Below are positions 29,798 through 61,689 of a stretch of DNA of 64,000 nt, one piece after another. Numbering within the stretch: position 1 is the first letter of the stretch; the number at the start of each line of letters is the position of its first letter. The position numbers were made by a program, and so were the translations under genes. Below the pieces are notes generated by a model that saw only the letters and a list, made by a program, of their open reading frames with translations, was not told the DNA's origin and ran no database searches. The stretch is from Pectinatus sottacetonis (GTDB taxonomy: Bacteria > Bacillota > Negativicutes > Selenomonadales > Selenomonadaceae): the NCBI RefSeq assembly GCF_015732155.1, contig NZ_WIQK01000001.1:940001-1004000 (forward strand). Reading direction: 5' to 3'.

Positions 29798-30346
29798 TTA
29801 TCCAGCATCATTATTTTCATTGCCGGCAAACTTCTGACAGATCTCCAGCATAGCTTCAGCAAAAGTTTTTGCTGGTACAGCAGTAAATCTTCTTTTTTCT
29901 GTCCTACTGTTAACAATACGATCCTTATTGGTATAAATTTCTGTTTTTGTATCAGTATACGTTTTATCTTTTATAGCAAAATTCATATATATTTTACAAT
30001 ATGAAACCTTTTCCCCCTTTGCCATATCCCGGGCATACTGCATTTGCAATTTATGCAGGATATCTTTATTGGTGAAGATGGTTTTTACTATTACAGTTAT
30101 TTTATCCTTATCTATTTTTCCATTATTTTTTTTCATAAACTGCAGTGAATTAATATCATAAGCATATACTCCTATGTTATTTTCTAAAACCAATGACCAT
30201 ATTTGTTCTTTTGTTGGAGAAATATCAGGCTGTGCGCTGATTTTCCAGTCCAGGGGATCTTGAACTTCATTCGTATCTTTTGCTGCTGCAAAAGCAGTAG
30301 TTGTCATACATAATAAACAACAGTAAATTATTATTATTTTTTTCAT
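29798..30346 (-). CDS. Secreted protein of unknown function, last gene of the nitrogenase-like/chelatase operon
   Basis: This 182-residue protein has a signal peptide (KKIIIIYCCLLCMTTTAFA, cut near AAA-KD) and a soluble, lysine-rich mature part with WKISAQPDISPTKEQIWSL and a YTDTKTEIYTNKDRIVNSRTEKRRF segment. I do not recognise a family; small exported proteins of this style are common in Negativicutes. The start is the ATG after GGAGAG, which overlaps the end of the ChlD-like gene, so it belongs to that operon. Its role may be periplasmic and linked to the imported substrate, which is inference. Confidence 0.65.
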   Translation of the reverse strand: MKKIIIIYCCLLCMTTTAFAAAKDTNEVQDPLDWKISAQPDISPTKEQIWSLVLENNIGVYAYDINSLQFMKKNNGKIDKDKITVIVKTIFTNKDILHKLQMQYARDMAKGEKVSYCKIYMNFAIKDKTYTDTKTEIYTNKDRIVNSRTEKRRFTAVPAKTFAEAMLEICQKFAGNENNDAG

Positions 30347-30350
30347 ATTT

Positions 30351-32282
30351 TCACTCTCCAATATTATCTATTATACGTAATACATTTTCTGTTTTTAATT
30401 TTGTTAACTCATAATAAGTTCCACCCATAGCTTTTGCAATATCACCAGCTATTCCCAGCTTTATAAAATCCGTTTCGGTATCAATAACAACCGAATCAAT
30501 TTTTTGCCGTTTTACTTCTTGTGCTGTTTCTAAGGCTTTTTTTACCGGATCATCGCTGTTTTCAAGCTTGCTGTTCGCCCGACCATCAGTGATCAATATT
30601 AATACTGCAGCAGCATCAATATCTTTTTCCCTTTCCATTTTTAATACCTGCAATGCTTTATTCAAGCCCTGTGCCAACGGCGTTTTCCCGCCCGTTGGCA
30701 TTTTTTGCAGGCATTTTTGCGCAAGATCGATACTGCGTGTTACTGGAAGCAATACTTCAGCCTTATCCTTGCGAAAAGCAATCATCCCTACACGGTCTCT
30801 TTTTTGGTATGCCTGCCGCAGCATATTAAATATAGCCCCTTTTACCGCATGCATTCTTTCATATGCACCCATTGAGCCACTGGCATCTACCACGAACAGA
30901 AACATACTGCCAATTCTTTTTTCTCGTACTTTTTGCCTTATATCTTCTGATAGTATTGTCAAGGCACAATCATTTTTAGACCGTGCTTTTTGATAAACTG
31001 CTGCATTTCTTATTGTAGCATCAAGCGCAATATCATCAATCATCCCATGCGGAATTCGGGCCCGGACATACCGCCCCCGTTTTAGATCAGTTTTAGTTAT
31101 ACTTCTTTTGCCGCTGCCGCGTCGATGAGTTTTATCAATCTTTCTTGCCAGTTCTAGCTGCGGCATACTAATTCTTTTATCTATATCAGATATTTTTTCT
31201 TCTGGTGCAGGGCTATTACTTTCCTGTTCCTTATTTTGATCCTTATTTTCAATATTATCAGCTGCTGGCTTACTATCATTATCCTGTGTTTCATTTCCCG
31301 TATTTTCAGTATCAGCCGCTTCATTTTCCGCAGGAGGAGTTTCATTCGGTTTTTCATCGTCCCTATCCATTGCATCACTATTATTTTCTGTCGTATTATC
31401 AGAATCATTATGCTTGTTTTCCTTGTTCTGTGACTGCTTATGACTACGATGCACCAATACAAGCACTGCTGCTTCGTTGAGATCCTTAGGCAGAACATAT
31501 GTTCTATCTGCCAACGCAGCCAAAGCTCTGGCTGTTTCCAATAAATACAATTCTGCCTGATGTCCCACGCAAAAAGCTTTTGCGCACATCTGTGCTGCCA
31601 AAAGTATAACAGCTTCGCTAAACTGAACCTGAGACAATATTATGCGTGCTTTCGCTATTTTTCTCGCCAATACTGATGTTTCCTTTTTATAAGCTTCACA
31701 AAAACCACATGGATTATTTTCAAAAGCCATCCTTCTTTTAACTATTTCTACACGTTTACCTGCATCTTTTTCACTAGTGCTTTCCACATATAAGCCAAAT
31801 TTATCTAGCATATATTCCGGCAAAAGCATTTCATGCGGATTCATTGTAGCTACCAGGGCAAAATTTACTGAATTCGCCTGTGCCCCATCCCGCACCATAA
31901 AATTGAAGTTACTTTGCTGAACCCTGCATACCGCATCAAGCAGCTCTGTGCGCAGTAAGTTGACCTCGTCAATATACAATAAATTATTATCGGCCCTATC
32001 AAGAATACCCTTATGCCACTTCTTTTGTCCTTTATTAACTGCATATTCAAAATCAATACTGCCAAAAAACATGTCTTCCGTTATATTTAACGGCAATTCA
32101 ATTATTTTCTGTTTATTCATAAGACTTTCACAAGCACGGACTAAAGTAGTCTTTGCAGTACCACTCGGCCCCCCTATAAGCAATCCGCCGACTTTCTGAT
32201 TGACTAAAATTACCAACAGGGCTTTTTTTACCTGATCCTGCCCTACAACAGCAGTAAATGGATAATTATATTTCCTGCGCAT
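30351..32282 (-). CDS. Magnesium/cobalt chelatase subunit D-like (AAA+ plus VWA)
   Basis: This 643-residue protein has an N-terminal AAA+ domain (Walker A-like [11 protein letters not shown], about residues 37-47), a very acidic low-complexity linker (about 283-362) and a C-terminal VWA domain. The metal-ion-dependent adhesion site DASGSMG starts at about residue 466. This is the architecture of ChlD/BchD, which docks the ChlI motor ring to the large chelatase subunit. The SD GAGG lies inside the chlI-like gene and the genes overlap by 17 bp, so they are coupled. With the CobN/BchH-type and ChlI-type proteins it completes a three-subunit ATP-driven chelatase. Confidence 0.9.
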
Positions 32283-33321
32283 TATCAGCCTCTATATTTT
32301 CGTCGAGAATATTTTGTATTTTATTCCAGTCAAAATCACTTTCTTCAAACGGCTGTCTGCGTAAACGATGCGGCAGAACCAGTCGGGACGCTGCTTTTAT
32401 GTCATCGGCAGACACAGATTGTTCGTCATTGAATGCAGCTATAGTCAAGGCTGTCTTTATAATAGTGATATCAGCACGGTGTCCATCTACTCCTATTGTT
32501 ACTGCCAGTTCAGCCACAGCCTGCATAAGATTATCTGTTATACATACTTTATGCAGTAGCTGTCTTGCCACAATAATTTTATCTGCCAGCTGTTTTTGCC
32601 TTTCTGCGTACTGACTTGCAAACATTTCTGGATCTCTTTCATATGCCAACCGGCGTTTTATAACTTCCACTCTTTTTTCTGGTTCCTGCTCACCCTTTAC
32701 CATAACAGATAATCCAAATCTATCTAAAAGCTGCGGCCTGATATCTCCCTCTTCTGGATTCATCGTACCTACAAGTATAAATCGTGCCGGATGTGAATAG
32801 GAAATACCTTCCCGTTCAACGGTATTTATTCCCATAGCAGCAGAATCCAACAACAAATCAACTATATGGTCATCCAACAAATTAATTTCATCCACATATA
32901 AAATATTGCGATTAGCTTGCGCCAATATCCCTGGCTCAAATTTTTTCTTGCCATATTTTATTGCATATTCCATATCCAGTGTTCCTGCGACACGGTCTTC
33001 CGTCGCGTTTACCGGCAGTTCCACAACACGCATTTTAATCAGTTCTATTGGCAACTTTCCTTCCCGCGACAACATTTCCGTACAATCATCGCACAGCATA
33101 CTGTCTTCATCAGGGTCACAGTGAAATTTGCATCCCTGCACACTTTTCATTGCGGGGAGCAATTCAGCAATGGCTCTTACCGCAGTTGATTTAGCCGTTC
33201 CTTTTTCTCCTTTAATCAAAACTCCTCCCAATGATGGATTTATTGCATTCAATATTAATGCCAATTTCATGTCCTCTTGTCCGGCAATAGCCGTAAACGG
33301 ATAAACACTCTTTCTTTTCAA
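32266..33321 (-). CDS. Magnesium/cobalt chelatase subunit I-like (AAA+ motor)
   Basis: This roughly 351-residue AAA+ ATPase matches ChlI/BchI. It begins [21 protein letters not shown] and has Walker [10 protein letters not shown], Walker [18 protein letters not shown] and sensor [19 protein letters not shown], with the C-terminal helical lid. The insertion with [17 protein letters not shown] could bind a metal. It energises metal insertion into, or removal from, a tetrapyrrole through the D and H/N subunits. I chose the TTG giving MKRKSVYPF, 8 nt after AAGGGGA; an ATG 39 bp upstream overlaps the preceding gene. Confidence 0.9.
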
Positions 33322-33347
33322 TTTACTTTCCCCTTGATATATAGTAA

Positions 33348-34382
33348 TTATCGCATACATTTAATAGTTATCTTTTTCAATTCACATTCAGGCAGACTTA
33401 TTTTTTCACCGCTGCATCCATACCATCTGGCAAAGCAGCCACCGCCACAGTGCTCAAATGAATCACATTCCCAGCAATATTTCATCACATTCTCAATTTG
33501 AGAACATATCTTTTTTACTTTTACTTTATCTATACCCGTACTGACATTCCCAATATAAAAATCATCATTCCCCACCAAAGATGAACAGGCATATATTCTG
33601 CCCGAGGCATCCACAAAAGCGGCTTCTCCTTTCATTGCATAGCAATGTGCAAATTCTCCCAGCATATTTTTATCCAGCATTTTCACATGTTGTTTATGGG
33701 AAAATATAATTTTATAACCTGCTAATAGCGATAATTCATCAGCCCGTTTATAGGTTTTATATAAATATTTCCGCATCATTTCAACTGACGGCGGTTCAAG
33801 TTGCACTCCCCGTCCCTGTGAACGAAGAATATCAAACCCTATTTTGCGTATATTTCCCAAAAAGTAAGCAAACTCTACCAGCTCCGGCAAGCATGCTATA
33901 TTATCCTTAGTTACGACACAGGTTATCCCTACAGCTATTCTATGGCGTTTCAATACTTCCAGTCCATTTAAAACACGGTCTGTTGTTCCCTTCCCTTCCG
34001 GCGTAATCCGCAGCTTGTCATTAACTGTGGGTTTCCCATCCAAACTTACGCCAATAGCAATTTTATGCCTAACTAAAAATTCAGCTATAGAATTAGTTAT
34101 TAACGATGCATTTGTCTGTAGCTGCAACTCCGTCGGCAAATTGTGTTCTTCTACATACTCTGTTATTTTTGCCAAACAAGTAAAATTCAAAAGCGGCTCA
34201 CCACCACTGAACTGAAGGATAAATTTTTCTTTACTAGCAGCCGCGAGATTAACTGCTTTTATTGCTGTCTGCAGCGACATTGCATTTTTATCATGTCCAG
34301 CCGCATAACAATAACGACAAGCAAAATTACATTGGCCCGTAAGACTCAATGCAAGCATTTTTATTTTACTGACTGCTGTCAT
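33348..34382 (-). CDS. Radical SAM protein with SPASM domain
   Basis: This roughly 344-residue protein has the radical SAM cluster motif CNFACRYC (Cys18, Cys22, Cys25), the [11 protein letters not shown]-binding motif and a SPASM-type C-terminus. That C-terminus carries more than eight cysteines ([31 protein letters not shown]) and probably binds auxiliary Fe-S clusters. SPASM proteins often mature peptides, but others modify small molecules. Its place inside a chelatase/nitrogenase-like operon suggests a role in tetrapyrrole or cluster chemistry. The start follows GGAGG and overlaps the CobN-like stop by 17 bp. The substrate is unknown. Confidence 0.88.
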
Positions 34383-37300
34383 TTCTATCCTCCAAATCAC
34401 CTTCGATCGAAAGATACAGTTTCCGTAGTTTTTCCCGGGTTTCCGGTTTAGCCTGCCACATTTTACGCTGTTCAGCTTCTAGTAATATTTCTGTCATTCT
34501 CTGCAGCGCCCATGGATTAACATCAGTAAGCCATTTTTGCACTTTTTCATCTAAAGCATATTTTTCCGCATATTTTTCATACATCCAGTCTTCCATAACG
34601 CTGCTTGTCGCATCCCATTGGAAGCTGTGTGCTAAATAATTAGCCATATCTGCTGCTCCCTTATAACCATGCTTCATCATTCCTGCGATAAATTTAGGAT
34701 TGACTGCTTCACTGCGAAAAATTCTTTTAGTTTCTTCCTGCACACTATGCATAACCACTTTACTGCGGTCTGTGCTATCACCACAGTAAGAACGTGGTGC
34801 TTGTCCCTTTATGCTTTTTACTGCCGCGATCATACCACCATGATACGCATTATAATCATCACTGCTGAGCATATTAGTTTCATGGTTATCTTCATTCTTT
34901 ATTGTTATATCTATACTCCCCATACGTTTTCTAAACTGCTGCGGCAGGTACTTCCCCCTGGTTTTTCCTCCATAGGCATGTGCTCCCCAGCGGACATATA
35001 CATCAGCCAGATCATCAATATTCTGCCAGTTCTTGGCTTCAAGCAAAGCACCAATTCCCGCACCATAAGTTCCCGGTTCATCCCCAAATATCCGGAAAGC
35101 AGCCTCCCGCCATGCATCTTTAGCTGGCAGTCCTTCATTTTGCAGCTCTTTGCTGTCTTCACTTACATGCTTCCTGACAAAATTAACTTCAAATGATTCA
35201 TCCAGTTTTGCTGCTAAAAGAACAGCTTTGTCTAAAAGTTTCATTAAAACAGGCACAGCATCGCGAAACAAGCCACTTATACGTGCTGTAACATCTATGC
35301 GGGGGCGTTTCAATTCTGCTGCCGGAATAATTTCCAGTCCAGTCACTCGCAAACTGCCTCTTTGCCATATCGGTTTTATACCCATTAAATATAAAAACTC
35401 CGCAATACACTGTCCATGACTGCGCATATTTGCCCCAGCCCATAGTATAATTCCTATATTTTCCGGATATCTGTGTTCCTCTTCAATAAATCTGCTTATA
35501 GCCTGTTCTGCAAGTGTTTTTCCTATTTCCCAAGCTGCTGGTGTGGGCAGCGTACGCTGGTCAATGCCATAAAAGTTACGTCCTGTCGGCAGCAGGTCAG
35601 CCCCACCACTTGTGGGCGCTCCAGATGGTCCCGGTTCAATATACTCTCCAGCAAAAGCCCGCAGCATATTGTTGCTCTCCTGTATAGTAAGCTGCAGATT
35701 AGGATAAATAGTTTCACAAATATACCTGGCTGCACTATCTATTTTTTCGCTTATATCTACCGATACATTTTTTAAAAAATCTAAAGAAAAAATATATCGT
35801 ATTTTTTCGCTGTTAAAATTATTAATTCGCAGTTTTTCTATTATCTGCTGACATTCTTCTATAACTTTATCAATCAGCTGTCCATAGGTTATCTGAAGTG
35901 GTTTATAAACTTCACTGCTGTGTTCCAGCATATAATAATAATCGGTGTCATATATCCGGGAAACTATGCCGGGCAGCCCAACAATATTGTTATTGTCAAG
36001 TCTTGTCAACAACCATATATAGTCAATAAGCTGTTCTCCCTCAGGTGGTTTTCCCAAAATGTGTAATCCCGTATGAACCTGCATGTTTTTTAAATCAGTT
36101 ATATAGTTATGCAAGGCCGCAACATATTCATTAAATGGTTTCTCTGCATTATAAATAACTTCATTACCTAAATCAGCCTGTGCTACTTTTTCCTGAATTA
36201 ATTCTTGTATTTTTACCAAATCAGCTGATTCCTGCCGGAAAAAATGGACATATTCTTCCAATAATTTTTCCAGTTCTGCCAATTCATCATAGGTTCCTGC
36301 CTGTGCTTGTGGTGCCGGCAAATGATCAATGAGACAGGCACTACTTCTTCGTTTTGCCTGTATTCCCTCGCCTGTTATACTCATTAAATATGGATATATG
36401 TTAGGCATATCCCCAATTGCCAAGTCAGGATAACAACAGTTGGACAACCCGGCATTTTTCCCCGGAAGCCATTCCAATGAACCATGCGTACCAATATGTG
36501 CCACAGCATCAGCCTGCCATTCATCTCTTAGCCATTTATAAAAAGCCAGGTATTGGTGTGTCGGAGCAGTAAATGGAGAATGGTATATTTTGGCCGGATC
36601 TTCACCAAAGCCGCGCGGCGGCTGTACAGTGATAAAAATATTGCCATTTATCATTCCCGGCACCAATAATGCATTTTTATAATACATCACACTGCCTGGT
36701 TCTTTTCCCCAGTCAGCATTTAATTGTCTTTGCACTGATTCATCAAGACTTGTAAAAAACTGTATGTATTTTTCCCGTTCCAGTTTTTGGGCTTTTGTTA
36801 ATTTTTCTTCATTGAGCATAGTTCTGTCATTAGTAGCATTATCTGTCAATTGTGCAATAAATGTTTTATTATCTGCGGGAATATCATCTATAATATATCC
36901 CTGCTGCTTCATTTTTATTAATAAACATCTTATGCTCTCAATAGTATCTAACCCAATAGCACTGCCAATATTAGAATTACGCGGCGGATAATTATGAAAA
37001 ATTATTGCTATTTTTTTATTCTTATTGTCCTTATGCCGCAGAATCCCCCATTTACGGGCTTTATTGGTTAAAATATGTATACGTTCAGCAATTGGTATAT
37101 ATTTCATACTGCCATCATCAGCCAGTTCCCTAGCAGCTACTGGTCCTCCGTGTACAACACCATCAAATTCCGGCAGCGAAACACTTATAGATATTTCCAT
37201 AGGATTCATACCGGCAAAATCCGCTTTCCAGTCATTATAAGTGGACATCAGCGTATATGCTTGTAGAACTGGTACATTAAAATGCTTAAGTGCCGCTATT

Positions 37301-38085
37301 GTCATAGAAGCACTGTTAGTCATAGAAAACTTCATTGTATTAATCAATACATCAATATATGGCTTTGCATTTTCATAAAAAAAACATTCAAAAACTTCCT
37401 TCAGACTGGGTGCCCCCATATCCTCGGACGGCATTCCATTGCTAAATACACAAATTACGTTCATTCCCTGTCTTTCAATTTCTCTTATCAATGTTTCCTG
37501 ATAAAACAAATCTTTCCATATCCATTCCTCACGATAAAATAAAATACCAAGTGTAATCCTGTTTTTTCGACAAAACTTATTCTTATATTCAGTCAAATTA
37601 TTATATATATGATCGGCATCAGGATGATATATACCACACCAAGGCAAAAGGAGTGGCATCGGAACTTTAATATCCTCTCTGCATAAAATATTCTTTATAA
37701 ACAGCCAGAAATTCATATAATTCTGCTGACCACCGAATAAAAAATATTTTTTTATCTGTGTAATCTGCGCACAAGATAATCCCTTAACATATTTCCCCGC
37801 TTCAGTCCCAGAAGAATCAATATAGTAAATAACATTATTATCCTGCAGATAAGTTAATAAATGCTTTAAAAAAGGAGTATCCAGCCCGCTGCCCATCCAT
37901 TTTACTATTACACAGCCTGTTCCTGGCATTATGTCCAGCCATTTTTCCCCCCATGTTTCTACCTGGTCTATCCATATACAACGACATTTATCATTAAGAA
38001 TAGCCTTATGCTGCAGTTCACTGACAGCAGTCTGCATAGCTGCTAACTGCCTATTCACATTACTTAAAAACAAAATCTTATACAT
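34366..38085 (-). CDS. CobN/BchH-type large chelatase subunit
   Basis: This 1239-residue protein is of the CobN/ChlH family, the porphyrin- or corrin-binding catalytic subunit of class I chelatases. It spans the full family length and contains the conserved AHIGTHGSLEWLPGKNAGLS and GEYIEPGPSGAPTSGG segments. CobN inserts cobalt into hydrogenobyrinate a,c-diamide and BchH inserts Mg into protoporphyrin. CobN-like HmuS of gut Bacteroidota instead removes iron from heme. Here it sits with FecCD, nitrogenase-like and ChlI/ChlD genes and TonB receptors, so action on an imported tetrapyrrole is plausible. An SD (GGGAG) lies 6 nt before the ATG. Confidence 0.92.
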   Translation of the reverse strand: MYKILFLSNVNRQLAAMQTAVSELQHKAILNDKCRCIWIDQVETWGEKWLDIMPGTGCVIVKWMGSGLDTPFLKHLLTYLQDNNVIYYIDSSGTEAGKYVKGLSCAQITQIKKYFLFGGQQNYMNFWLFIKNILCREDIKVPMPLLLPWCGIYHPDADHIYNNLTEYKNKFCRKNRITLGILFYREEWIWKDLFYQETLIREIERQGMNVICVFSNGMPSEDMGAPSLKEVFECFFYENAKPYIDVLINTMKFSMTNSASMTIAALKHFNVPVLQAYTLMSTYNDWKADFAGMNPMEISISVSLPEFDGVVHGGPVAARELADDGSMKYIPIAERIHILTNKARKWGILRHKDNKNKKIAIIFHNYPPRNSNIGSAIGLDTIESIRCLLIKMKQQGYIIDDIPADNKTFIAQLTDNATNDRTMLNEEKLTKAQKLEREKYIQFFTSLDESVQRQLNADWGKEPGSVMYYKNALLVPGMINGNIFITVQPPRGFGEDPAKIYHSPFTAPTHQYLAFYKWLRDEWQADAVAHIGTHGSLEWLPGKNAGLSNCCYPDLAIGDMPNIYPYLMSITGEGIQAKRRSSACLIDHLPAPQAQAGTYDELAELEKLLEEYVHFFRQESADLVKIQELIQEKVAQADLGNEVIYNAEKPFNEYVAALHNYITDLKNMQVHTGLHILGKPPEGEQLIDYIWLLTRLDNNNIVGLPGIVSRIYDTDYYYMLEHSSEVYKPLQITYGQLIDKVIEECQQIIEKLRINNFNSEKIRYIFSLDFLKNVSVDISEKIDSAARYICETIYPNLQLTIQESNNMLRAFAGEYIEPGPSGAPTSGGADLLPTGRNFYGIDQRTLPTPAAWEIGKTLAEQAISRFIEEEHRYPENIGIILWAGANMRSHGQCIAEFLYLMGIKPIWQRGSLRVTGLEIIPAAELKRPRIDVTARISGLFRDAVPVLMKLLDKAVLLAAKLDESFEVNFVRKHVSEDSKELQNEGLPAKDAWREAAFRIFGDEPGTYGAGIGALLEAKNWQNIDDLADVYVRWGAHAYGGKTRGKYLPQQFRKRMGSIDITIKNEDNHETNMLSSDDYNAYHGGMIAAVKSIKGQAPRSYCGDSTDRSKVVMHSVQEETKRIFRSEAVNPKFIAGMMKHGYKGAADMANYLAHSFQWDATSSVMEDWMYEKYAEKYALDEKVQKWLTDVNPWALQRMTEILLEAEQRKMWQAKPETREKLRKLYLSIEGDLEDRNDSSQ

Positions 38086-38097
38086 AATTAACTCCCA

Positions 38098-39132
38098 TTA
38101 AAAATAGTGTTTTTGCATTCTGCGCAGTAAATACAAAAAGTATGGTGTTCCCAATAAGGCTGTCATTATCCCTACACGTATCTCTGTCGGTGGCATTATT
38201 ATTCTTCCCAGGGAATCACATATTACTAAAATAATTGCCCCGGCCAAGGCACTTGCGGGCAGCAATATACGATGGTCGGGACCTATAATCATCCGCATCA
38301 TATGCGGCACCACTAGCCCGACAAAACCTATATTGCCGCTTACACACACTGCCGCTGCCGTAACTATTGCCGCCAGGGACAGCATTATCATACGAAATGG
38401 CAGCACAGACATTCCAACTGCGCGGGCTTCAGTATCTCCCAAGACCAATATATTAAGCTGCCGTGATAGTAAAATCATCATCACTATTCCTATAATTATC
38501 GGCCCTACAGCTATATATACATGCTGCCAGCGGCGATAATCCAGCCCCCCAATAATCCAAAAAAGATAGTTCTGCAGCTTTTGCTCATCTATTATTGTTA
38601 AAATTCCTGATGTAACAGCACTTAAAAACATCCCTACAGCCACTCCGGCAAGCAGTAACGTCATTACAGGAATTTTTCCGTTATGCATCGATAAAAAGAC
38701 TGTCAGCATAATAGCGAATAAACTCCCCGCAAAAGCAAAAGCCGGCAGTAAAAACATATTCTGGGCCGAAAAGCCAAGTGCTATGGCAATCACTGCTCCT
38801 GTGGCCGCTCCTGCCGAAACACCAATCATTCCCGGTCCAGCCAAAGGATTGCTAAATACTCCCTGCATCACGGCCCCAGAAGTCCCCAATGCCGCTCCTA
38901 CCAATACACCGACAAGCATTCTCGGCATACGGATAAACCATATAACAGCTGCCTGTTCCGCATTAAACTGGCTATGGCTTACCGGCAAACCGATATGGCT
39001 GGCAATAACAGCCAGAGTATTTTTTACAGGAATATTAATTTGCCCGCAAGTCATAGAAAAACAGGAAACTACTAATAAAAAAATAAATAGTCCCACTAAA
39101 AACAACTGATTATTTTTTCTATTTATCAGCAT
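38098..39132 (-). CDS. FecCD/BtuC-type ABC transporter permease
   Basis: This roughly 344-residue inner-membrane permease of the iron-siderophore/heme/cobalamin class has about ten hydrophobic helices. It carries the family motifs RMPRMLVGVLVGAALGTSGAVMQGVFSNPLAGPGMIGVSAGA and GNIGFVGLVVPHMMRMIIGPDHR. It is the only permease of this class in the window. Binding lipoproteins lie at 47.3 kb and 54.8 kb and the matching ATPase at 57.9 kb, all under related control. The start is the ATG after GGAG; it overlaps the preceding nitrogenase-like gene by 14 bp. Confidence 0.9.
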   Translation of the reverse strand: MLINRKNNQLFLVGLFIFLLVVSCFSMTCGQINIPVKNTLAVIASHIGLPVSHSQFNAEQAAVIWFIRMPRMLVGVLVGAALGTSGAVMQGVFSNPLAGPGMIGVSAGAATGAVIAIALGFSAQNMFLLPAFAFAGSLFAIMLTVFLSMHNGKIPVMTLLLAGVAVGMFLSAVTSGILTIIDEQKLQNYLFWIIGGLDYRRWQHVYIAVGPIIIGIVMMILLSRQLNILVLGDTEARAVGMSVLPFRMIMLSLAAIVTAAAVCVSGNIGFVGLVVPHMMRMIIGPDHRILLPASALAGAIILVICDSLGRIIMPPTEIRVGIMTALLGTPYFLYLLRRMQKHYF

Positions 39133-40429
39133 ACATATCCACTCCAAACGACCTATTTATTTTTTGGTGTATAAACACATTCCATAATCTTTGCAGCATA
39201 TATGCACTGCCCTTAATTCCAGCAAAAGGATAATTAATCAATTGCACTTCTTCTTTGGACGGATATGCGATATTGCAAAAAACATTATTATTTTTTCTCT
39301 GTCTAAGTACTACTCTGTTTTCATTACTACTACCCAAAACCAAGGTGTTGTTTGATATTTTCAGCTTTTCCTTAACTATGTCAGCATCATCTTCCATATT
39401 ATAAACTTTGTCCGGCATACTGGAATATAAATCTACCGTTATTATTTTTTGCTGACAAACAACCTGCAGATAAGCTGTATCCAGCCACTCGCCGCGCAAT
39501 GCTCCAGCTAATCCCAAAGCTGCTGTTCCCGCTGCATATATTACAACATTATCAAACCACAAATTTCCCCAGCTGCAGCATATATCATTATTCCACGCTA
39601 ATAAATGCTCTGACATTTCATCACATTCGGCATAAACGGCTGTCATATTGGCCGCTATCTGCCGGGTTATACGCTGCAGCCATGACTTTGTTCCCTCTAT
39701 GCCATATGGCATTCCCGCTATAACAAATGGTATCTGGTATTTCTGTTGCAGATACTGAGCAACAGGCATTCCTAATTCTTCATTTATCACTACGTTTAAG
39801 GCTGCTTTATCTATATCCCGTATTTTATCCAAAGGACTTCCTGCCCCTAAAACTACATTGATCTTATAACCTGCCTTTGCCAGAATACGCAGGATTTCCT
39901 CCCGATCGGCCTTGCCATTAAAATAAAAATCAGTAAGACCTAATACATTTATTAACCGTGGTTCTTTTTTCGCAAAAGATCGGATAGAAATCGTTTCAAA
40001 TAGTTTTACGGCCGCACCTGCATATCCCTTAGCAAAGTTTCCCATCAATCCCCCGCAGTCCATTGTAACAACAGGAAAATCCAACTTTGCTTCTTTTGCT
40101 ATACCGGCAATATCATCACCTATAAGCCCTATTGAACAACTATTTTCTATTAATAAAACAGCTGGTTTCACTTGTTTTTTCTTTATTTTGTCCAATGCTG
40201 CCAATAAAAACTTTTCTGTTCCGTAAACAACCGCATTATTATCCGGCTGTGACCCATGAAATCTTTCAGCTATACCATAAGCAGCGTGTTCCAAATACCG
40301 CAGAGCATAAAAATAACACCATAAAGGCCCGTTAGCTAATATCTCTCCTCCGGGAATACCAGCAAAAAAAGCTGCTGCCCCGGCTAATGCACATGGTTCA
40401 GTATTCCCACAATCCCAAAATTCAGACAT
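39119..40429 (-). CDS. Nitrogenase component 1-like protein (second subunit)
   Basis: This 436-residue protein belongs to the NifD/NifK/BchN/BchB superfamily. Likely [4Fe-4S] ligands are Cys13, Cys38 and Cys98 (ENSCSIGLIGDD), spaced like Cys62/88/154 of NifD. Beyond these the VTMDCGGL segment and C-terminal Rossmann-like repeats fit the fold. Known non-nitrogenase members reduce tetrapyrroles (BchNB, BchYZ, CfbD) or cleave C-S bonds. The neighbouring chelatase genes favour a tetrapyrrole substrate. It overlaps the preceding homologous gene by 8 bp, with a GGAGGG SD. Confidence 0.87.
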   Translation of the reverse strand: MSEFWDCGNTEPCALAGAAAFFAGIPGGEILANGPLWCYFYALRYLEHAAYGIAERFHGSQPDNNAVVYGTEKFLLAALDKIKKKQVKPAVLLIENSCSIGLIGDDIAGIAKEAKLDFPVVTMDCGGLMGNFAKGYAGAAVKLFETISIRSFAKKEPRLINVLGLTDFYFNGKADREEILRILAKAGYKINVVLGAGSPLDKIRDIDKAALNVVINEELGMPVAQYLQQKYQIPFVIAGMPYGIEGTKSWLQRITRQIAANMTAVYAECDEMSEHLLAWNNDICCSWGNLWFDNVVIYAAGTAALGLAGALRGEWLDTAYLQVVCQQKIITVDLYSSMPDKVYNMEDDADIVKEKLKISNNTLVLGSSNENRVVLRQRKNNNVFCNIAYPSKEEVQLINYPFAGIKGSAYMLQRLWNVFIHQKINRSFGVDMYADK

Positions 40430-41720
40430 ACACTATCCCTCCTTTATGACTGCGACTACATAAAGTCTGATATATTATCTGCATAAAACCAATCTCTCCA
40501 CTTGTGCCTGCTTTGGGAAGCATCGGTAAAAAAATTTGTTTTACCCGGCAGTTTTTTAACTCATGCGTAGTTAGTATCACCTGAACATTTTCTAACAATT
40601 TATTAGGATATTCACCATTATATATAGTTGCATCAGTATATTTTTTCAGTAAATTTTCCATTTTTTTACGTTCTTTTTCTTCATAAACATCCAGCATTAC
40701 AATTCCCCGCAAATGCATTCGGAGTTTATTTACAATTTCTATAACCTGTCCTGGATCAAAATATACAGTCAATCTTCCTATAAATAAAACCGTCGATTTT
40801 TGGGCCGTCTTTAAACAAAATTCTGCTGTTGCGCATAACAAGTTCTTTTCTTCCCTGTCAGCTAATTCTGCCGCTTTTTCTGCACAGTTGAATAACCTGC
40901 CCATATCTGCAAGCCATTGTTTAGTTTTTTTACTGCCTATTGGATATACACTGGGTATATATTTCATCCCAAAATTCTCTGCCAGCATTTTCGCTAGTTG
41001 TGCCAGTCCTGCCTGTGCCTGCTGCACACTGCCTAATACAATAACAGCCTCAGCCTTCGCCGCTTCTTGCATCTCATTTATCGGCATATAGCCCGGGAAT
41101 TGCCCAACAATGCACACTCCCAATGCATTGAGTAAACGTGTCACTTCCCTGACATAACTGCCCGCCGGGCCGCCATTATCCCCCAGCAACAATGCTGTTT
41201 TTGGTAAACTATCTTTTTGTTTTTTAAAAAACTTTTTTACCAGCTTTTCTGCCGTTTCTATATATCCCTGATAATATTCTCCATCCAAAAAACCACAGCA
41301 ATTAACTGTAATCACTGGCAAATTATATTCTTCCTCCGCTTTTCTGCCTGCTGCATCCACATCATCTCCTATAATACCTGCGACACATGAATTAGCAATA
41401 ACAATACAATCAGGTGTATATTGTTTTACCACAAAATCTATACAGTCAGCTAATTTCTCATTACCGCCAAATATAGCATTTTTTTCTTTAAGCTGACTAG
41501 AAATCAATGGAACAGGTACCTTGAAAAATGCATCGTCTGACAAAGCAGCATTTCTATACAAAGAATTTATTTCCATATTATTTACAATGTTCGTACAGGC
41601 CTGAGGACTGTGAAAAATAACTACAGCCCCTTTACAGTAGGCAGCAGCGCGCCATACTCCCGGCATACTGCAGCTACAGCTTTTCTTTTTGGCTATAAAT
41701 CTTTTAACACTGGCTATCAT
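40422..41720 (-). CDS. Nitrogenase component 1-like protein (first subunit)
   Basis: This 432-residue paralogue of the next gene has candidate cluster ligands Cys15/Cys17, Cys42 (SPQACTN) and Cys112 ([12 protein letters not shown]). It also has the family motif IFGGNEKL (about residues 83-90), found in NifD/NifK and dark-operative reductases. Together the two proteins probably form a heterodimer or heterotetramer that takes electrons from the NifH-like protein. I see no nifE, nifN or nifB gene, so a FeMo-type cofactor is unlikely. It overlaps the nifH-like gene by 17 bp with coupled translation. Confidence 0.87.
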
Positions 41721-42516
41721 ATTTATCCACCATCATTTCCAGTTCCTCAAAACTTAGCGGTGTAGGAACTGTTAAATGTTCATTTTGTAAAATATCAGCA
41801 GCAAGATCGCGATAAATTTGTGCTTGTTCATGCTCCGGCGCATACTGTAAAACCGTCTGACGTTTATTTTCAGCCTTATTAACAATAATATTGCGGGGAA
41901 TAAAGCTAATTAACCGCGTATTTATTTTTTCTGCAAATTCATTCAATAATTTTTGTTCATCCGGCATATTACGGCTGTTACCAATAATCCCTGCCAGTCT
42001 GACTTTACCCCGTGATGCAAAACGCTTAATGCCTTTGGCTATATTGTTAGCTGCATACAAACTCATTAATTCCCCTGAAGAAACAATATATATCTCTGTC
42101 GCATAATTTTCCCTTATGGGAACAGCAAATCCACCACATACGACATCTCCCAGCACATCATATAAAATTAGATCTTCTCCCTTTAAAGCCTGCAGCTCTT
42201 TCAATTTTTCCAGCGCAACTATAATCCCCCGGCCGGCGCAGCCTACACCCGGCTCAGGTCCACCTGCCTCAACACATTTGATACCATTATAACCAATGTT
42301 TACTATATCTTCTGTTTTAATTTCATCCTTATCCCGCAACACATCTAAAACTGTATTTCTGCATATATATCCTAACAACAGCCGCGTGGAATCATTTTTG
42401 GGATCACAGCCGATCTGACATACTTTTAACCCCTTCTGACTAAATGCTGCAGAAAGGTTTGCTGATGTAGTGGATTTTCCAATGCCGCCTTTACCATAAA
42501 TTGCAATTTTTTTCAA
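41704..42516 (-). CDS. NifH/BchL-like ATP-dependent reductase
   Basis: This 270-residue protein is of the NifH/BchL/BchX/CfbC family. P-loop [11 protein letters not shown] is at residues 7-17. The two cysteines that bind the inter-subunit [4Fe-4S] cluster are Cys93 (GVGCAGRG, with the Arg that is ADP-ribosylated in NifH) and Cys127 ([11 protein letters not shown]). It would deliver electrons one at a time to the two component-1-like proteins encoded next. The start is TTG with an AAGGGA SD. It is the first gene of an operon of at least nine genes under a MerR-type promoter. Confidence 0.92.
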
Positions 42517-42599
42517 AAAAATCCCTTCATATTCATAAAATAATATCCTGCTTCACACTTATATAATTTTATATCAAAAATAACATATATATTTTCATA

Positions 42600-42630
42600 A
42601 TTTTAAACTATATACTTATTATACAGTCAA
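42600..42630 (-). promoter_or_regulatory. MerR-type promoter/operator of the nitrogenase-like operon
   Basis: On the minus strand TTGACT (42625-42630), a 19-bp spacer and TAAAAT (42600-42605). The spacer region holds the dyad ACTGTATA-N5-TATATAGT. The same arrangement occurs at 57845-57875 and 50297-50327. Long 19-bp spacers with an internal dyad are typical of promoters activated by MerR proteins. A 17-bp reading with a poorer TTTAAA -10 also exists. Confidence 0.65.
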
Positions 42631-42705: not shown

Positions 42706-43035
42706 TCATTTATCATGGTGTGTGCATTTTCCACTGCTTTCGCCATTTTTTATTCTATGGAAAATTTCATGAACTTCTTTGGAACTTTTCCCGGCAGCCA
42801 TTGCTTTTTGCGCATGAATAACAGCACTGCGATATTTAGCATGAGCTGCATCTTTGGGAATAGATTCAACATCTTTCGGATCAAAAGCCATTACTTTTTT
42901 AAAAATGGCATGCAATTCTGCTGTCGATTTACCCTGCTTTTTAGCAGCTTCTACGTGCCTCATAGCACTCTCATAACGACTTTTTCCATGAGGATCATCA
43001 GGTATCTGAAACTTTGGATGCGGACTACAATTCAT
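42706..43035 (-). CDS. Small protein with two tandem helical repeats
   Basis: This 109-residue soluble protein consists of two copies of a roughly 32-residue unit. Copy 1 (about residues 19-51) reads SRYESAMRHVEAAKKQGKST..., copy 2 (about 65-97) AKYRSAVIHAQKAMAAGKSS..., each ending in an ELHAIF / EVHEIF helix. A CTHHDK tail and several histidines could bind a metal, which is inference. No named family is recognised. It has its own promoter, a 32-bp palindrome in its leader and its own terminator, so it is regulated independently although it sits between the receptor cluster and the nitrogenase-like operon. The SD is GGAGGTG. Confidence 0.8.
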   Translation of the reverse strand: MNCSPHPKFQIPDDPHGKSRYESAMRHVEAAKKQGKSTAELHAIFKKVMAFDPKDVESIPKDAAHAKYRSAVIHAQKAMAAGKSSKEVHEIFHRIKNGESSGKCTHHDK

Positions 43036-43144: not shown

Positions 43145-45094
43145 TTAGAAATTATAACTTATTCCTGCCAAAAACGTTCGTCCCGGCATCGGGAATTCAT
43201 AATAATCACCCTTAAGTCCTGCATTTTCTGCATAAGCAGCATTAGTTAAATTATAAACTTTCGCATAAACCTTCATGTTTTTATTAACTTTATATTGTGC
43301 TGCCAGATCAAGAACCAGCCATTTTGAAGCCACATATTCTTCTCTGGAGGCCCCACTTATTCCTCTGGCAAATAATGAACCATTCCAACGATTTTTATGA
43401 TAGTTTATGCCAAACTTATACTGGTTGGGCGGCAACTTCAAATCTTTTTGGAACCCATCCCCGGTTCCCTTGTCTTCTCTGCTTCTCACATATGTATAAC
43501 TGGCATCTGCTGACCATGTATCATCAAACTGATGATTGAAATCTATTTCTATACCATTTCTTTTCTGCCGGCCGATATTGTAGACGGTCCTGCCCGCCGC
43601 ATGATTAGCCGGATCTATATAATCCCACTCAATAGCATTTGTCAGATCATTGTAAAAAGCACTCACACCTATATTAGTTTTATTATCCAGCTTGCTGTCA
43701 TATCCCAGAGTATATACATTGCCGGTTTCTGGTTTCAAATTTGGATTGCCTATAACAGGTCCATAATATCCATTAGGCAGATAATAAAACATATCATTGC
43801 CTTGCGGTGCATCAAATACCTGCCCCCAAGAAAAATATGCATGTCCATTATCAGCTATTTTTCTATTTACAGCCATATGCAGTGTTGTTTTATGTCCAAA
43901 ATAATTATGTTTATTATAGCGTACACCGGATGTCAAGTTCCATAATCTGTTGATATCCCAAATATTTTGAAGATAGACCGCTTTCGTATTGATTTCATGT
44001 TCCTGTCCATAATAAGAACTTTTTATCTTAGATTTATGCCATTCAATACCTGTTACTAATCTATCAGCTTTATTTAAGCGTATATTTTGTTGTACCTCTG
44101 CCCCGTCTCTGGTTTCTCCATAATTGCCGCGTGTAGTATCAGAAGCAAAGTTAGTAAAAGAATAATTGCGGTAAACCTGAGCAAACCCATTATTATCTTT
44201 ATCTTCATTCCATATGTATTTAAAAGCAGCATCATTATCAAGATCTGTTCCCCATGCTCCAGTCTTAAAAACTTTTCCACTTTCCGGGGAGGCATAGGGA
44301 TCACGTCCATCCTTAAAAAAATGAGAAAAATATAACGCGGCACTCTGGTCAGTTCCTATATGCTGTTCCAGTTTAACAGTTGCACTATTAGTATTATTGG
44401 CAGAATTAGGCCACTCTTCATCGTGTCCAGTCTGCGCATTTTTATACTTTATATAATCCTGGTGCGATTTTGCCAGTGTAATAAAATAATCTGTCTTTTT
44501 TACCTTGCCGCCCATTGATGCAGAGTAATTTCTTGTTCCCCATGAACCCGCATCGGCATTCAATGTAATCTCATTTTTACTGCCACTTTTAGTTATAATA
44601 TTAACAACCCCGCCCACAGCATCCGAACCATATAATGAAGAAGCAGCACCCTTTACGATTTCAATTTTTTTAATAAACTCAGGTGATGGTAAATTAGAAA
44701 TATCAAAGCCGGATCTGCCGCCCATTTCTGTTCCCTTGCTGAGATTAAGCGGGCGTCCGTCTACCATGATCAATACCCGTGAATCACCATTTATATAAAT
44801 ATGCTGATCTTCTCCCCCAACCCCGCTGCGTTTTACAATTACGCCTGGTACATTATCCAATGCTTCACTTACATTTTGGTAGTTTCTATCAGCAAAATCT
44901 TTGGCTGTTATAACAAAAACATTAGCCGCTGTATCTATAAGTTTATTTTTGGTCCTGGCAGCAGTTATTACCTCATTGCCCAGATCAAAATCCTGCGTTG
45001 AATTTTCTGCCAATACCGTTGCGGCACTCCCCAACAGCACACTGCCTGTAACTACCACAGACAAGATTGCTGTTTTCCTGTATAACTGCTTCAT
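43145..45094 (-). CDS. TonB-dependent outer-membrane receptor (receptor C)
   Basis: This 649-residue receptor has a signal peptide (to about residue 29, ...ATVLAEN) and a TonB-box-like segment NEVITAART. The plug domain (about 50-160, with SSLYGSDAVGGVVNIITKSG) is followed by a 22-stranded barrel ending in the outer-membrane signature AGISYNF. There is no N-terminal FecA-type signalling domain. It is similar in layout to BtuB/Cir-type importers of cobalamin, heme or siderophores. It has its own promoter and is separated by 267 bp from receptor B, so it may be expressed separately. Confidence 0.92.
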   Translation of the reverse strand: MKQLYRKTAILSVVVTGSVLLGSAATVLAENSTQDFDLGNEVITAARTKNKLIDTAANVFVITAKDFADRNYQNVSEALDNVPGVIVKRSGVGGEDQHIYINGDSRVLIMVDGRPLNLSKGTEMGGRSGFDISNLPSPEFIKKIEIVKGAASSLYGSDAVGGVVNIITKSGSKNEITLNADAGSWGTRNYSASMGGKVKKTDYFITLAKSHQDYIKYKNAQTGHDEEWPNSANNTNSATVKLEQHIGTDQSAALYFSHFFKDGRDPYASPESGKVFKTGAWGTDLDNDAAFKYIWNEDKDNNGFAQVYRNYSFTNFASDTTRGNYGETRDGAEVQQNIRLNKADRLVTGIEWHKSKIKSSYYGQEHEINTKAVYLQNIWDINRLWNLTSGVRYNKHNYFGHKTTLHMAVNRKIADNGHAYFSWGQVFDAPQGNDMFYYLPNGYYGPVIGNPNLKPETGNVYTLGYDSKLDNKTNIGVSAFYNDLTNAIEWDYIDPANHAAGRTVYNIGRQKRNGIEIDFNHQFDDTWSADASYTYVRSREDKGTGDGFQKDLKLPPNQYKFGINYHKNRWNGSLFARGISGASREEYVASKWLVLDLAAQYKVNKNMKVYAKVYNLTNAAYAENAGLKGDYYEFPMPGRTFLAGISYNF

Positions 45095-45361: not shown

Positions 45362-47308
45362 TTAAAATTTCCGTTCATAAGTAAAAGCAACATTTGCCGG
45401 CATCGCATAATATTCATAATTATTTATAACATCATCTCTATTAAACAAGTTCCGTCCCACTAATTTAAAGCTGTCTACATCAGTTGGCGCATAACTCAAT
45501 GTAACTGTCAAATCACAGCTGTTTTTCAAATTATGGTCACTTATTTTGGAAGATGTACGTTCATAATTATAATATGCCGGTTCTCGATCCAAATAAGCAA
45601 AAATACGCGCATCAGCCATGAATTTATTTTTATTGTATCTTGCCCCTGTGTTAATAACATATTTAGCTGAATCCTGCGTCCATTGTGAAGTACTTGAAGA
45701 ATATGCTTTAGGGTTCTGCCAGGTGATCCCGATATCAGCTGATAATTCATTGTTTATTTTCTGGTCATAATTTACTTCCAGCCCAGTATTTTTCCATTTA
45801 TCACGATTCTTCATTATACTAGCCCCAGTATCTGTTTTATCCCAGTAAAATTTATTATTGACCGTCATATAAAATACATCTGCCGTAATTGTCTTTTTCC
45901 CATCAGCAAACTTATGCCCCAGTTCATACGACCAGCCTGACTGTGGTTTTAAGTCAGAATTAACTACATAGTTACTGCTGTAGAAAAATCCTGAGCTAAT
46001 ATCCGGCATTTCAAATGATTTACCGATATTAAAATAATAAGAAGATTTATCATTTACTTTATATAATCCCTGGAGCTGTGGCAAAACCTGAAAATCGCTG
46101 TCCTGGAACTTTGAACTCGTCATGTAATATTCGCGCAGGCCCGTTATAATATTAAATTTATTCGTTATCTGGTGATTATATGACTGATACAGTGAATAAC
46201 TATTTCTGTCATTTGTTTCATTATCCACAGATGGCTGATAATTGCATTTTATATGTTCGCGCGTGAGTGTTGTCCCTAAAATAAATGAATCTTTATCATT
46301 GCGCAGATCAAACTTTTTTTGTACATCAAGATTGGCATTATACCCCCAGAATTCATTATCTGTATAATGTTTAGGATATGATTTATCATATATAGTATTA
46401 CAATTAAAAGTATTATATCCTGCAACAGCTCTTAGCCCATTTGTAGTATTATATATTAATGCATAATTATTAAAAGAAGTATCTATGTTACCTTTATACA
46501 ACATATTAGGCACATAATTAATAAATTTCCCTGTTTCAAAATCTGACTTATTATCCGTCCTGCCATAACTGAACATTAGCTCTTTAGTCAAATTTATATC
46601 CAAATACATTTGTTCAGCACTTTTATCTTTAATATTTAAGGCCGGCCCTGCTCCTGCTATCCCAGCATGTTCCACATTTAAAAAATCCCTGCTGTACGAC
46701 TTTTTTATCCCAGCATTAAAATTATCCGTCTGTATATTCAAACTTGAACCCTTAATCCTGCTACCGACAGTCCCGGAAATAGTGCCTGTAACTTTACCTG
46801 TCTTAGCAGGTTTTTTCGTGATAATATTTATCACCCCGCCAATTGCTTGTGGTCCATATAAAACTGAATTTGCCCCTTTTACAATTTCAATTTTTTCCAC
46901 CTGGTCTATGGGAATATTATTCAATGTAGCATGATTCATATAATTTCCCGGATTTCCATTTATAAGAACCAATGTCCCGTCATCAATACCGCGCAATTTT
47001 ATTCTTGACATCATCGAGCCATAATCCATACCATCTTCCTGATAAGTATGTGCATCAGCCTGTGTCAAATTTCTAACAGCTTCAAATACACTACTGTATC
47101 CGCCATTTTTTATTTCTTCAGCCGTAATTACCTGTACATTGGCAGGTGCATCAATTATTGCTTTTTTAGTTCTCGTTGCTGTTACTACTGTCTGATCTAA
47201 ATTAAACGCTTGGTCAGATTGTGCATAAGCTGTTGAAACAGCTCCCATGAGCAGATCCCCTGTTACCATTATTGATATCAACATTGAACGACTCAAATAT
47301 TTATTCAT
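45362..47308 (-). CDS. TonB-dependent outer-membrane receptor (receptor B)
   Basis: This roughly 648-residue receptor has a signal peptide ending ...STAYAQ and the TonB-box-like DQTVVTATRT. The plug contains GIDDGTLVLINGNPGNY and NSVLYGPQAIGGVINIITKKP, and a barrel follows with C-terminal FTYERKF. It follows the binding-lipoprotein gene by 36 bp and belongs to the receptor A - lipoprotein - receptor B operon. The start is the ATG giving MNKYLSRS; one 9 bp upstream is also possible. The substrate class (corrinoid, heme or siderophore) is inferred only from neighbours. Confidence 0.92.
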   Translation of the reverse strand: MNKYLSRSMLISIMVTGDLLMGAVSTAYAQSDQAFNLDQTVVTATRTKKAIIDAPANVQVITAEEIKNGGYSSVFEAVRNLTQADAHTYQEDGMDYGSMMSRIKLRGIDDGTLVLINGNPGNYMNHATLNNIPIDQVEKIEIVKGANSVLYGPQAIGGVINIITKKPAKTGKVTGTISGTVGSRIKGSSLNIQTDNFNAGIKKSYSRDFLNVEHAGIAGAGPALNIKDKSAEQMYLDINLTKELMFSYGRTDNKSDFETGKFINYVPNMLYKGNIDTSFNNYALIYNTTNGLRAVAGYNTFNCNTIYDKSYPKHYTDNEFWGYNANLDVQKKFDLRNDKDSFILGTTLTREHIKCNYQPSVDNETNDRNSYSLYQSYNHQITNKFNIITGLREYYMTSSKFQDSDFQVLPQLQGLYKVNDKSSYYFNIGKSFEMPDISSGFFYSSNYVVNSDLKPQSGWSYELGHKFADGKKTITADVFYMTVNNKFYWDKTDTGASIMKNRDKWKNTGLEVNYDQKINNELSADIGITWQNPKAYSSSTSQWTQDSAKYVINTGARYNKNKFMADARIFAYLDREPAYYNYERTSSKISDHNLKNSCDLTVTLSYAPTDVDSFKLVGRNLFNRDDVINNYEYYAMPANVAFTYERKF

Positions 47309-47344
47309 TAACTCCATTCCCCCAAAATTATTATTGCATATTTT

Positions 47345-61219: not shown

Positions 61220-61425
61220 TTGTATAATCGCCGTCCCTATCACTCGCAGGTTATAATGGTGATTGCTGAATAAGCAGTTCTTCTGACTCCAGTTCATTGC
61301 AATACCAGCCTTCTCAGATTTCTCCAATGGCATAAAAGGCTTGCTCCCTGTTACAGCGGCGTGACCGTACTGGTTTTTACCAGTTTCTCTATTAAGTCCT
61401 AGTGGACACTTATTCCCTCGATATT
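61220..61425 (-). promoter_or_regulatory. Cobalamin riboswitch upstream of receptor D
   Basis: Read on the minus strand, the conserved blocks occur in order: AAGTGTCC...CTTAATAG, CGGTCACGCCGCTGTAA, GCCATTGG...TGAGAAGGC and the B12 box GGAGTCAGAAGAACTGC (61271-61290). A stable ACTGGCC/GGCCAGT hairpin with TTCTTTT and a second terminator follow. When adenosylcobalamin is bound the leader should terminate, switching off receptor D and the ATPase. Confidence 0.88.
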
Positions 61426-61620
61426 TTTTTAAAAACATTTTCATTTTATAACTTTACCTATATAAAATCAATAGGTAATATAAATATTATTATTGACAAA
61501 AATTATTTATTTCACTTATTATTAATAATTTTACCCTAAAGTACAACCACATATTACATAAAATCCTATAAATAGATAAATTTTGTGATATATATGCTCT
61601 AATAGTTTAATTTATATTTC

Positions 61621-61649: not shown

Positions 61650-61689
61650 AGAAGTTAGATTTATTATCTTGATATAATTATCAATTATT

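Follow-up and report, generated by a model that had tools for sequence, protein, structure and literature searches.

A nitrogenase-like reductase that often accompanies a cobalt chelatase, a radical SAM enzyme and a B12-type importer suggests an undescribed reworking of B12-like molecules

Described relatives and the Pectinatus sottacetonis operon

BchLNB and BchXYZ couple an ATP-driven NifH-like donor to a two-subunit acceptor and have no active-site metallocluster, and CfbCD, in F430 biosynthesis, pairs nitrogenase-like reduction with a metal chelatase on a tetrapyrrole. A nine-gene minus-strand operon of Pectinatus sottacetonis, at 29798-42516 of a 64,000-nucleotide stretch of contig NZ_WIQK01000001.1 (the whole stretch is called the window), resembles both: a NifH-like protein and two component-1 subunits, here termed D and K, are encoded together with a CobN-type chelatase, a radical S-adenosylmethionine (SAM) enzyme and a B12-type permease. 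The analysis suggests that this uncharacterised nitrogenase relative takes part in an undescribed reworking of B12-like molecules. At about even confidence, the genes are read as a corrinoid-salvage system of the vitamin B12 regulon, with a reductase step followed by a cobalt chelatase step.

Other described systems share single components with this operon. MarHDK has six P-cluster cysteines and an [Fe8S9C] cluster of which MarD Cys270 is a ligand, and CfbD is the sole relative not built of two paralogs (PMC12552129; this and the other PMC sources are cited from partial texts). HmuS is a CobN-family heme dechelatase, that is, a protein acting on a metallo-tetrapyrrole in anaerobes (PMC12583661). 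In operon-2 of Dehalobacter restrictus, a BtuCD-like transporter, CbiZ, CobN and Mg-chelatase subunits are encoded together and are upregulated on average 46-fold at low corrinoid (PMC4285132); the Pectinatus system differs in its added NifHDK-like reductase and radical SAM enzyme, and the word nitrogenase is absent from the available text of that paper. A 2012 survey of nitrogenase-like sequences described ABC-transporter neighbours and speculated about metal transport or about a reduction of cobalamin by NflD (PMC3464626). However, its organisms and Cys patterns are others, and "chelatase", "CobN", "Selenomonas", "Phascolarctobacterium" and "radical SAM" are absent from as much of its text as was available. 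Among the literature matches listed, none describes, by title or available text, a nitrogenase-like reductase with this chelatase and corrinoid gene make-up, which agrees with an earlier reading of the window made from its letters (the sequence-only reading), according to which this is not a known characterised pathway.

The genes of the operon, assigned with Pfam and NCBIfam profiles, are as follows (aa, amino acids).

41704..42516, minus strand: NifH-like ATP-dependent reductase, 270 aa, with P-loop GKGGIGKS and Fe-S cysteines C93 and C127
40422..41720, minus strand: D-like component-1 subunit, 432 aa, with the triad C17/C42/C112 and without a FeMoco-type cysteine
39119..40429, minus strand: K-like component-1 subunit, 436 aa, with the triad C13/C38/C98; predicted fold nearest BchB, tied with the B chain of the Mar complex
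38098..39147, minus strand: FecCD/BtuC-type permease, in an operon without an ATPase gene of its own
34366..38085, minus strand: CobN-type large chelatase subunit by profile, 1239 aa
33348..34400, minus strand: radical SAM-SPASM enzyme, 350 aa, with CX3CX2C and seven C-terminal cysteines in 20/20 rows
32266..33360, minus strand: ChlI-like AAA+ chelatase ATPase, by profile
30351..32282, minus strand: ChlD-like AAA+/VWA chelatase subunit, by profile
29798..30361, minus strand: predicted secreted protein, 187 aa (secretion read from the N-terminus), with homologs in 5/63 related loci

Profile matches were Fer4_NifH (2e-110), Oxidored_nitro (2e-58 and 6e-48), FecCD (8e-96), CobN-Mg_chel (E 0), Radical_SAM and the ChlI-like and ChlD-like ATPases, and no family in Pfam or NCBIfam was found for the 187-aa protein. 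From NifH to the last gene the junctions measure -17, -8, -29, +12, -35, -13, -17 and -11 bases. The nine overlapping minus-strand genes named by the sequence-only reading are therefore borne out in their order, with seven overlaps and one 12-base gap. Its extent, 29798-42630, does contain a real operon, but the first open reading frame (ORF) starts at 42516 and the same-strand run continues upstream to 50233, through a 109-aa His-rich protein, three TonB receptors and a binding protein. Likewise, nifE, nifN and nifB are absent, as that reading had it, within the operon, but elsewhere in the 2.69 Mb host genome, about 0.8 Mb away, lies a nif cluster (L008) with nifH, nifD, nifK, nifE and a nifN-B fusion, all named from sequence. 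PF00148 has six matches in the genome, four in this nif cluster and two in the operon.

Cluster ligands, phylogeny and fold of the reductase

Cysteines were counted in alignments of relatives, with D and K rows of at least 380 residues and at least 140 bits; the distant loci L100-L102 were left out here and, by score or name, from the NifH-like count and the locus gene counts given below. As had been claimed from the sequence, the cluster cysteines are present: C17, C42 and C112 of D are kept in 64/64 rows, C13 and C38 of K in 65/65, C98 of K in 59/65 (serine in the other six), and C93 and C127 of the NifH-like protein in 47/47. In contrast, a cysteine at the active-site cofactor position (NifD Cys275, MarD Cys270) occurs in 0/64 D rows and 1/65 K rows; 8/65 K rows carry one a single column away. 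The ligand set is thus P-cluster-type, with no conserved active-site cluster ligand. Nitrogenases (NifDK, VnfDK and AnfDK) share the six P-cluster cysteines but not the lack of the cofactor cysteine, and the same distinction applies to MarHDK. The D-K cluster would then be P-cluster-type or [4Fe-4S], held on the six cysteines.

The six K rows with serine are second copies in Selenomonas and Centipeda. This second D-K pair (L084, L086, L089, L090, L092, L095) lies in a stretch without NifH, chelatase or CbiZ, and may be a paralog that is derived or has a regulatory role.

A tree of 61 rows recovers D as one clade (SH-aLRT 100) and K as another (99), both distinct from the Nif, MarD, Bch and CfbD references. 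The phylogenetic placement proposed in the sequence-only reading therefore puts both subunits outside all functional clades included. D groups with Nif D/E and Mar rows (93), while the MarD fragment groups with other proteins, the L100/L101/L113 rows (99). K falls into an unresolved group that also contains CfbD and a Treponema protein, each on a long branch. The tree was a quick search with SH-aLRT support and no bootstrap, two of its deepest forks are weak (75), MarK and BchZ (cut at a stretch end) are not among its rows, and placements are unsure for the long branches, namely CfbD, both Treponema rows, BchN, BchY, BchB, the L098 D protein and L045. In comparison to CfbCD, whose catalytic subunit CfbD is encoded by a single gene, the operon has two distinct subunits in separate clades and a cobalt context; its NifH-like protein scores 387.6 bits for CfbC, against a cut-off of 402.

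Predicted models (pLDDT 86.1 for D and 90.9 for K) place K closest to BchB (Z 37.7, rmsd 3.1, 409 aligned), with chain 9fmg_B of the Mar complex level with it (36.8). For D the closest structure is MarD (Z 25.6, rmsd 4.8, 355 aligned), on a par with chains of BchB and of the MoFe protein. K position 38 is nevertheless cysteine in 65/65 rows and aspartate in the sole BchB reference. Among solved structures, the D profile best matches MarD (3e-48), then NifE, and the K profile clostridial NifD (2.7e-32), then NifE and BchB. These best matches favour a nitrogen-fixing or carbon-sulfur-cleaving enzyme, that is, a nitrogenase or methylthio-alkane reductase. However, the active-site cysteine is missing from 64/64 D and 64/65 K rows, both subunits form separate clades and the genome has its own nif cluster; on the absent cysteine and the clades this identity was rejected, and it is given a very low probability.

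Co-occurrence of reductase, chelatase and radical SAM enzyme

Co-occurrence was counted in 189 genomes of the window's family, with radical SAM orthologs defined by E 1e-45 or better and with three of 26 genomes that gave K matches (G339, G340 and G341; E 1e-21 to 1e-24) set aside as distant. K is present in 23 genomes, CobN in 38 and the radical SAM ortholog in 19. CobN occurs in 22/23 genomes with K and in 16/166 without it (Fisher 1.5e-17), and the genomes with the radical SAM ortholog all (19/19) lie within the 22 that have both K and CobN (Fisher 2.7e-23); both tests ignore relatedness. At genus level, CobN is found in 6/7 K genera (p 0.004). Contrasts within two genera point the same way. 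Two of the five genomes of the window's genus (g1) have K, CobN and the radical SAM ortholog and three have none, a distant nitrogenase-type match in G339 being set aside. Similarly, one of the three genomes of genus g215 has all three genes and two have none. Among fetched CobN loci, a radical SAM neighbour is absent at seven, six in genomes without K (L132-L136 and L141) and one in a genome with K (L138).

A scan of genome contigs gave 66 reductase loci, 63 of them close, and locus gene counts refer to these 63. Many loci are truncated, and gene labels are best BLAST matches on mechanically called ORFs, in which split or short genes can be missed. CobN was found at 31 loci, ChlD at 26, ChlI at 23, a permease at 31, a binding protein at 30, a TonB receptor at 26, the radical SAM enzyme and CbiZ at 19 each, and CbiK and a carbon-nitrogen hydrolase at seven each. 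The survey of CobN homologues beside NifHDK-like genes that had been suggested from the sequence thus gives 31/63 at the level of loci and 22/23 at that of K genomes.

The relatives belong to Negativicutes, plus one Pelotomaculum, and their genera include Pectinatus, Phascolarctobacterium, Succiniclasticum, Sporomusa, Pelosinus, Anaerospora, Selenomonas, Centipeda, Dialister, Schwartzia and Megamonas. The nearest named relative is Pectinatus frisingensis (L037), with K 54% identical. In a phylum sample, K was found in 2/299 genomes at E 1e-30, one being the window's own, and two plasmid searches (the best 60 of 249 and 60 of 264 records) gave only Nif-type, BchL, two Treponema records or unannotated places. 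Negativicutes of the gut, the rumen and the mouth carry these genes, which surveys can mistake for nitrogen-fixation genes. For example, PMC8597730 describes pseudo-nifH in this class, as well as reads resembling nifD from Phascolarctobacterium faecium and Selenomonas with no accompanying nifK.

It is fairly likely that reductase and chelatase act in one pathway. Alternatively, the two could be separate steps of corrinoid metabolism that are linked by regulation and share no common intermediate. Loci with the reductase alone, genomes with CobN alone and genomes with the reductase but no detected CobN, all described in the next section, would be consistent with such a link, as would the separate contigs of P. 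frisingensis. However, the radical SAM ortholog is confined to genomes with both partners, and K, CobN and the radical SAM gene are jointly present or absent in g1 and g215, so that a purely regulatory link is considered unlikely.

The proposed sequence-only pathway, acting on an imported metallo-tetrapyrrole, is thus upheld as far as the co-occurrence of reductase, chelatase and radical SAM enzyme is concerned; the change of ring or metal that it included goes beyond what the sequence gives.

Corrinoid context and the direction of chelation

Outside the operon, the window contains the following features.

42706..43035, minus strand: small His-rich protein, 109 aa, with seven conserved histidines; in relatives near the reductase or near CobN
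43145..45094, minus strand: TonB-dependent receptor; hemin profile 187 bits and B12 profile 179 bits, both below cut-off
45362..47317, minus strand: TonB-dependent receptor
47345..48301, minus strand: periplasmic binding protein (Peripla_BP_2)
48356..50233, minus strand: TonB-dependent receptor; highest score with the B12 receptor profile (191 bits, below cut-off), against 136 for hemin
50403..51245, plus strand: MerR-family regulator, oriented divergently from the run; several Phascolarctobacterium loci have a homolog placed likewise with respect to NifH
54777..55760, minus strand: binding protein of the riboswitch-led operon (Peripla_BP_2)
55772..56860, minus strand: CbiZ, adenosylcobinamide amidohydrolase (PF01955, 1e-55)
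56893..57837, minus strand: TIM-barrel protein (AP_endonuc_2), with homologs in 15/63 related loci
57901..58659, minus strand: ABC ATPase, corrinoid-type 213 bits and heme-type 212 bits, in an operon without permease; putative partner of the permease at 38098-39147
58833..61055, minus strand: TonB-dependent receptor, first gene of the riboswitch-led operon; hemin profile 210 bits and B12 163, both below cut-off
61256..61428, minus strand: cobalamin riboswitch (RF00174, 86 bits; threshold 31.5)
61681..61854, plus strand: cobalamin riboswitch (RF00174, 73 bits), preceding a TonB_C protein at 61972

Of the two cobalamin riboswitches identified in the window with Rfam, one precedes the operon TonB receptor-ATPase-TIM barrel-CbiZ-binding protein. 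A survey model built from 11 cobalamin switches gave 31 matches in 14/63 loci, and in 10/63 a riboswitch lies ahead of the reductase unit. It directly precedes NifH at L040, L052, L057, L069 and L072, and CbiK-D-K in Pelosinus (L076 and L099). In Schwartzia (L074 and L083) it is followed by two short ORFs and then CbiK-NifH-D-K, and at L059 by one 217-aa ORF and then NifH-D-K. The Schwartzia ORFs encode 97 and 112 aa (L083 6201-6835) and 82 and 113 aa (L074 6171-6785). As a control, 18 stretches of 20 kb (360 kb), hand-picked from Sporomusa ovata and Anaerospora genomes, gave 0 matches, against 9 in two reductase loci of these organisms. Of two control stretches from the window's genome, one held a riboswitch pair; this pair lies at L164 15939-16603, about 216 kb on contig C1.

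In Pelosinus, the complete arrangement is riboswitch-CbiK-D-K-CbiZ, with CbiK (1e-100) in the usual position of NifH, and CobN was not found in the P. propionicus genome. The window's genome has two FecCD permeases at E 1e-20, the second in a complete set of riboswitch, CbiK, CbiL, binding protein, permease and ATPase (CbiK and CbiL named from sequence). Since this second permease has its own ATPase and binding protein, the operon permease most likely forms one transporter with the orphan ATPase (57901-58659) and binding protein (54777-55760) of the CbiZ operon, the other ABC ATPases of the genome being outside the search.

A corrinoid is the likely substrate: riboswitches, CbiZ, CbiK and the split transporter favour corrinoid and cobalt over heme. 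The range of substrates left open by the sequence-only reading (cobalamin, cobinamide, heme or siroheme) can therefore be narrowed to corrinoids and cobalt. In the heme alternative, heme, siroheme or another porphyrin would be imported and reductively demetallated for its iron, an anaerobic heme use like that of HmuS. The TonB receptors at 43145-45094 (187 vs 179 bits) and 58833-61055 (210 vs 163) do score higher for hemin than for B12, and the binding protein at 54777-55760 scores 53 for IsdE and 27 for BtuF, all below cut-off; HmuS itself sets a precedent in the CobN family. In contrast, the receptor at 48356-50233 favours B12 (191 vs 136 bits), and riboswitches, CbiZ and CbiK point away from heme. 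The operon's CobN is nearest CobN among solved proteins (7e-211), ahead of ChlH (1.5e-156) and HmuS (1.4e-114), and the protein passes the curated TIGR02257 cut-off (942.3 vs 822.05 bits). Moreover, 28/28 CobN rows have the motif SDDY.A(Y/F)HGG instead of the HmuS motif LSLDHxxEFMGG, on which HmuS membership was rejected. HmuS, a protein with a methionine-rich insertion and the heme ligands Met79 and His254, further differs in length (1463 aa against 1239) and in that ChlI and ChlD genes adjoin CobN here in the same operon. Heme use is therefore judged unlikely.

CbiD is present in 177/189 and CbiJ in 178/189 family genomes, the window's genome having both. Since these are markers of the anaerobic, early-cobalt B12 pathway, CobN looks dispensable for making B12 and is probably a salvage enzyme, which offers a testable reason for anaerobes with early-cobalt B12 genes to keep CobN. 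The same distribution of CbiJ rules out the reductase as a substitute for this ring reductase of the B12 pathway.

The salvage system would begin with corrinoid import through the TonB receptors, the binding protein at 54777-55760, the permease at 38098-39147 and the ATPase at 57901-58659, and CbiZ would strip the lower-ligand loop from the imported corrinoid. The NifH-like protein would then hand ATP-gated, low-potential electrons to the D-K complex. Since D-K has no ligand for an active-site metallocluster, it probably reduces a corrinoid bound in its cavity, with ring or cobalt as the reduced site, by analogy with the ring reductions of BchNB, BchYZ and CfbD. CobN-ChlI-ChlD would subsequently act on the reduced corrin with ATP and remove or exchange the cobalt. 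Because the radical SAM ortholog is found only with both reductase and CobN, that enzyme may serve the combined reductase-chelatase step. D and K represent an additional clade of two-subunit nitrogenase-like enzymes with P-cluster-type ligands and no conserved active-site cluster ligand, tied by their gene context to cobalt and B12.

Environmental corrinoids mostly already hold cobalt. For this reason, and given the neighbouring CbiZ and carbon-nitrogen hydrolase, cobalt would be taken out or exchanged rather than inserted; this is the likeliest of the directions, though sequence cannot separate them, and it carries about half the confidence placed in a shared pathway. Chemists describe cobalt corrins as resisting cobalt removal without destruction of the corrin ligand (PMC6771967). 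Tentatively, the operon might encode the first ATP-driven reductive system for removing or exchanging cobalt in an intact corrin ring, with nitrogenase-like reduction of ring or metal enabling the CobN chelatase.

It is also possible, at a minority probability, that the same class of substrate is processed in the opposite direction. Cobalt would be inserted into salvaged metal-free or oxidised corrin rings to give a usable cobamide, and the reductase would restore the ring oxidation level or reduce Co(II) to Co(I) for adenosylation. Control by riboswitches that sense B12 suggests a product that relieves a shortage of B12, the CobN-type rather than HmuS motif is consistent with insertion, and CbiK, an inserting class II chelatase, occupies the same position in Pelosinus. 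Additionally, Dehalobacter, said to lack corrinoid biosynthesis though holding genes for it, induces its similar CobN operon (PMC4285132). However, cobalt-bearing environmental corrinoids would leave an inserting chelatase little obvious substrate, and CbiZ and, in 7/63 loci, the carbon-nitrogen hydrolase look like dismantling enzymes.

Several observations weigh against a coupled salvage system that removes or exchanges cobalt. In 22/63 loci, H-D-K or D-K stands without chelatase, importer, CbiK or CbiZ in the fetched stretch; of these 22, 12 genomes were searched and 9 have CobN elsewhere. Among 21 reductase genomes searched, CobN was found somewhere in 17 and not found in 4. CobN occurs without K in 16/189 genomes, several of them incomplete, and P. 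frisingensis has CobN-radical SAM-ChlI-ChlD and H-D-K-permease on separate contigs. In both Sporomusa species (L052 5259-7064 and L059 557-3577), the CobN adjoining the reductase is broken into three ORFs, although intact CobN genes occur elsewhere in the two genomes. No riboswitch precedes the window's own reductase operon, although the putative partner ATPase and the binding protein at 54777-55760 do sit in a riboswitch-led operon. Nor was one found at eight fetched CobN loci without adjoining reductase (L132-L138 and L141), so the switch tracks the reductase or CbiZ rather than CobN. By profile, heme and B12 cannot be told apart for the TonB receptors, the binding proteins or the ATPase. 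Finally, ChlI and ChlD keep P-loop and VWA motif residues, read from conserved positions, and such a motor is compatible with insertion as well.

Some further genes were observed near the operon and in more distant stretches. The 109-aa protein at 42706-43035 has no Pfam match and consists of two repeats; seven of its histidines are conserved in at least 90% of 14 rows, of which two represent the same gene. Its homologs adjoin CobN also where the reductase is absent (L135 and L141), and it is possibly a metal carrier. At L045 1-5441 (Phascolarctobacterium), a distant nitrogenase-like pair (ORFs of 321 and 409 aa) lies a few kb from the main operon, next to a fragment of CobN and a protein homologous to the secreted one of 187 aa. 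Another nitrogenase-like set, NifH and two component-1 proteins, is encoded on the Treponema saccharophilum plasmid pTS1 (L110 7959-14255). Its neighbours are a binding protein, a FecCD permease and an ABC ATPase, and the stretch has no annotated chelatase. Neither the D nor the K clade includes its proteins, and the set resembles the ABC-transporter neighbours in the part of the 2012 survey available (PMC3464626).

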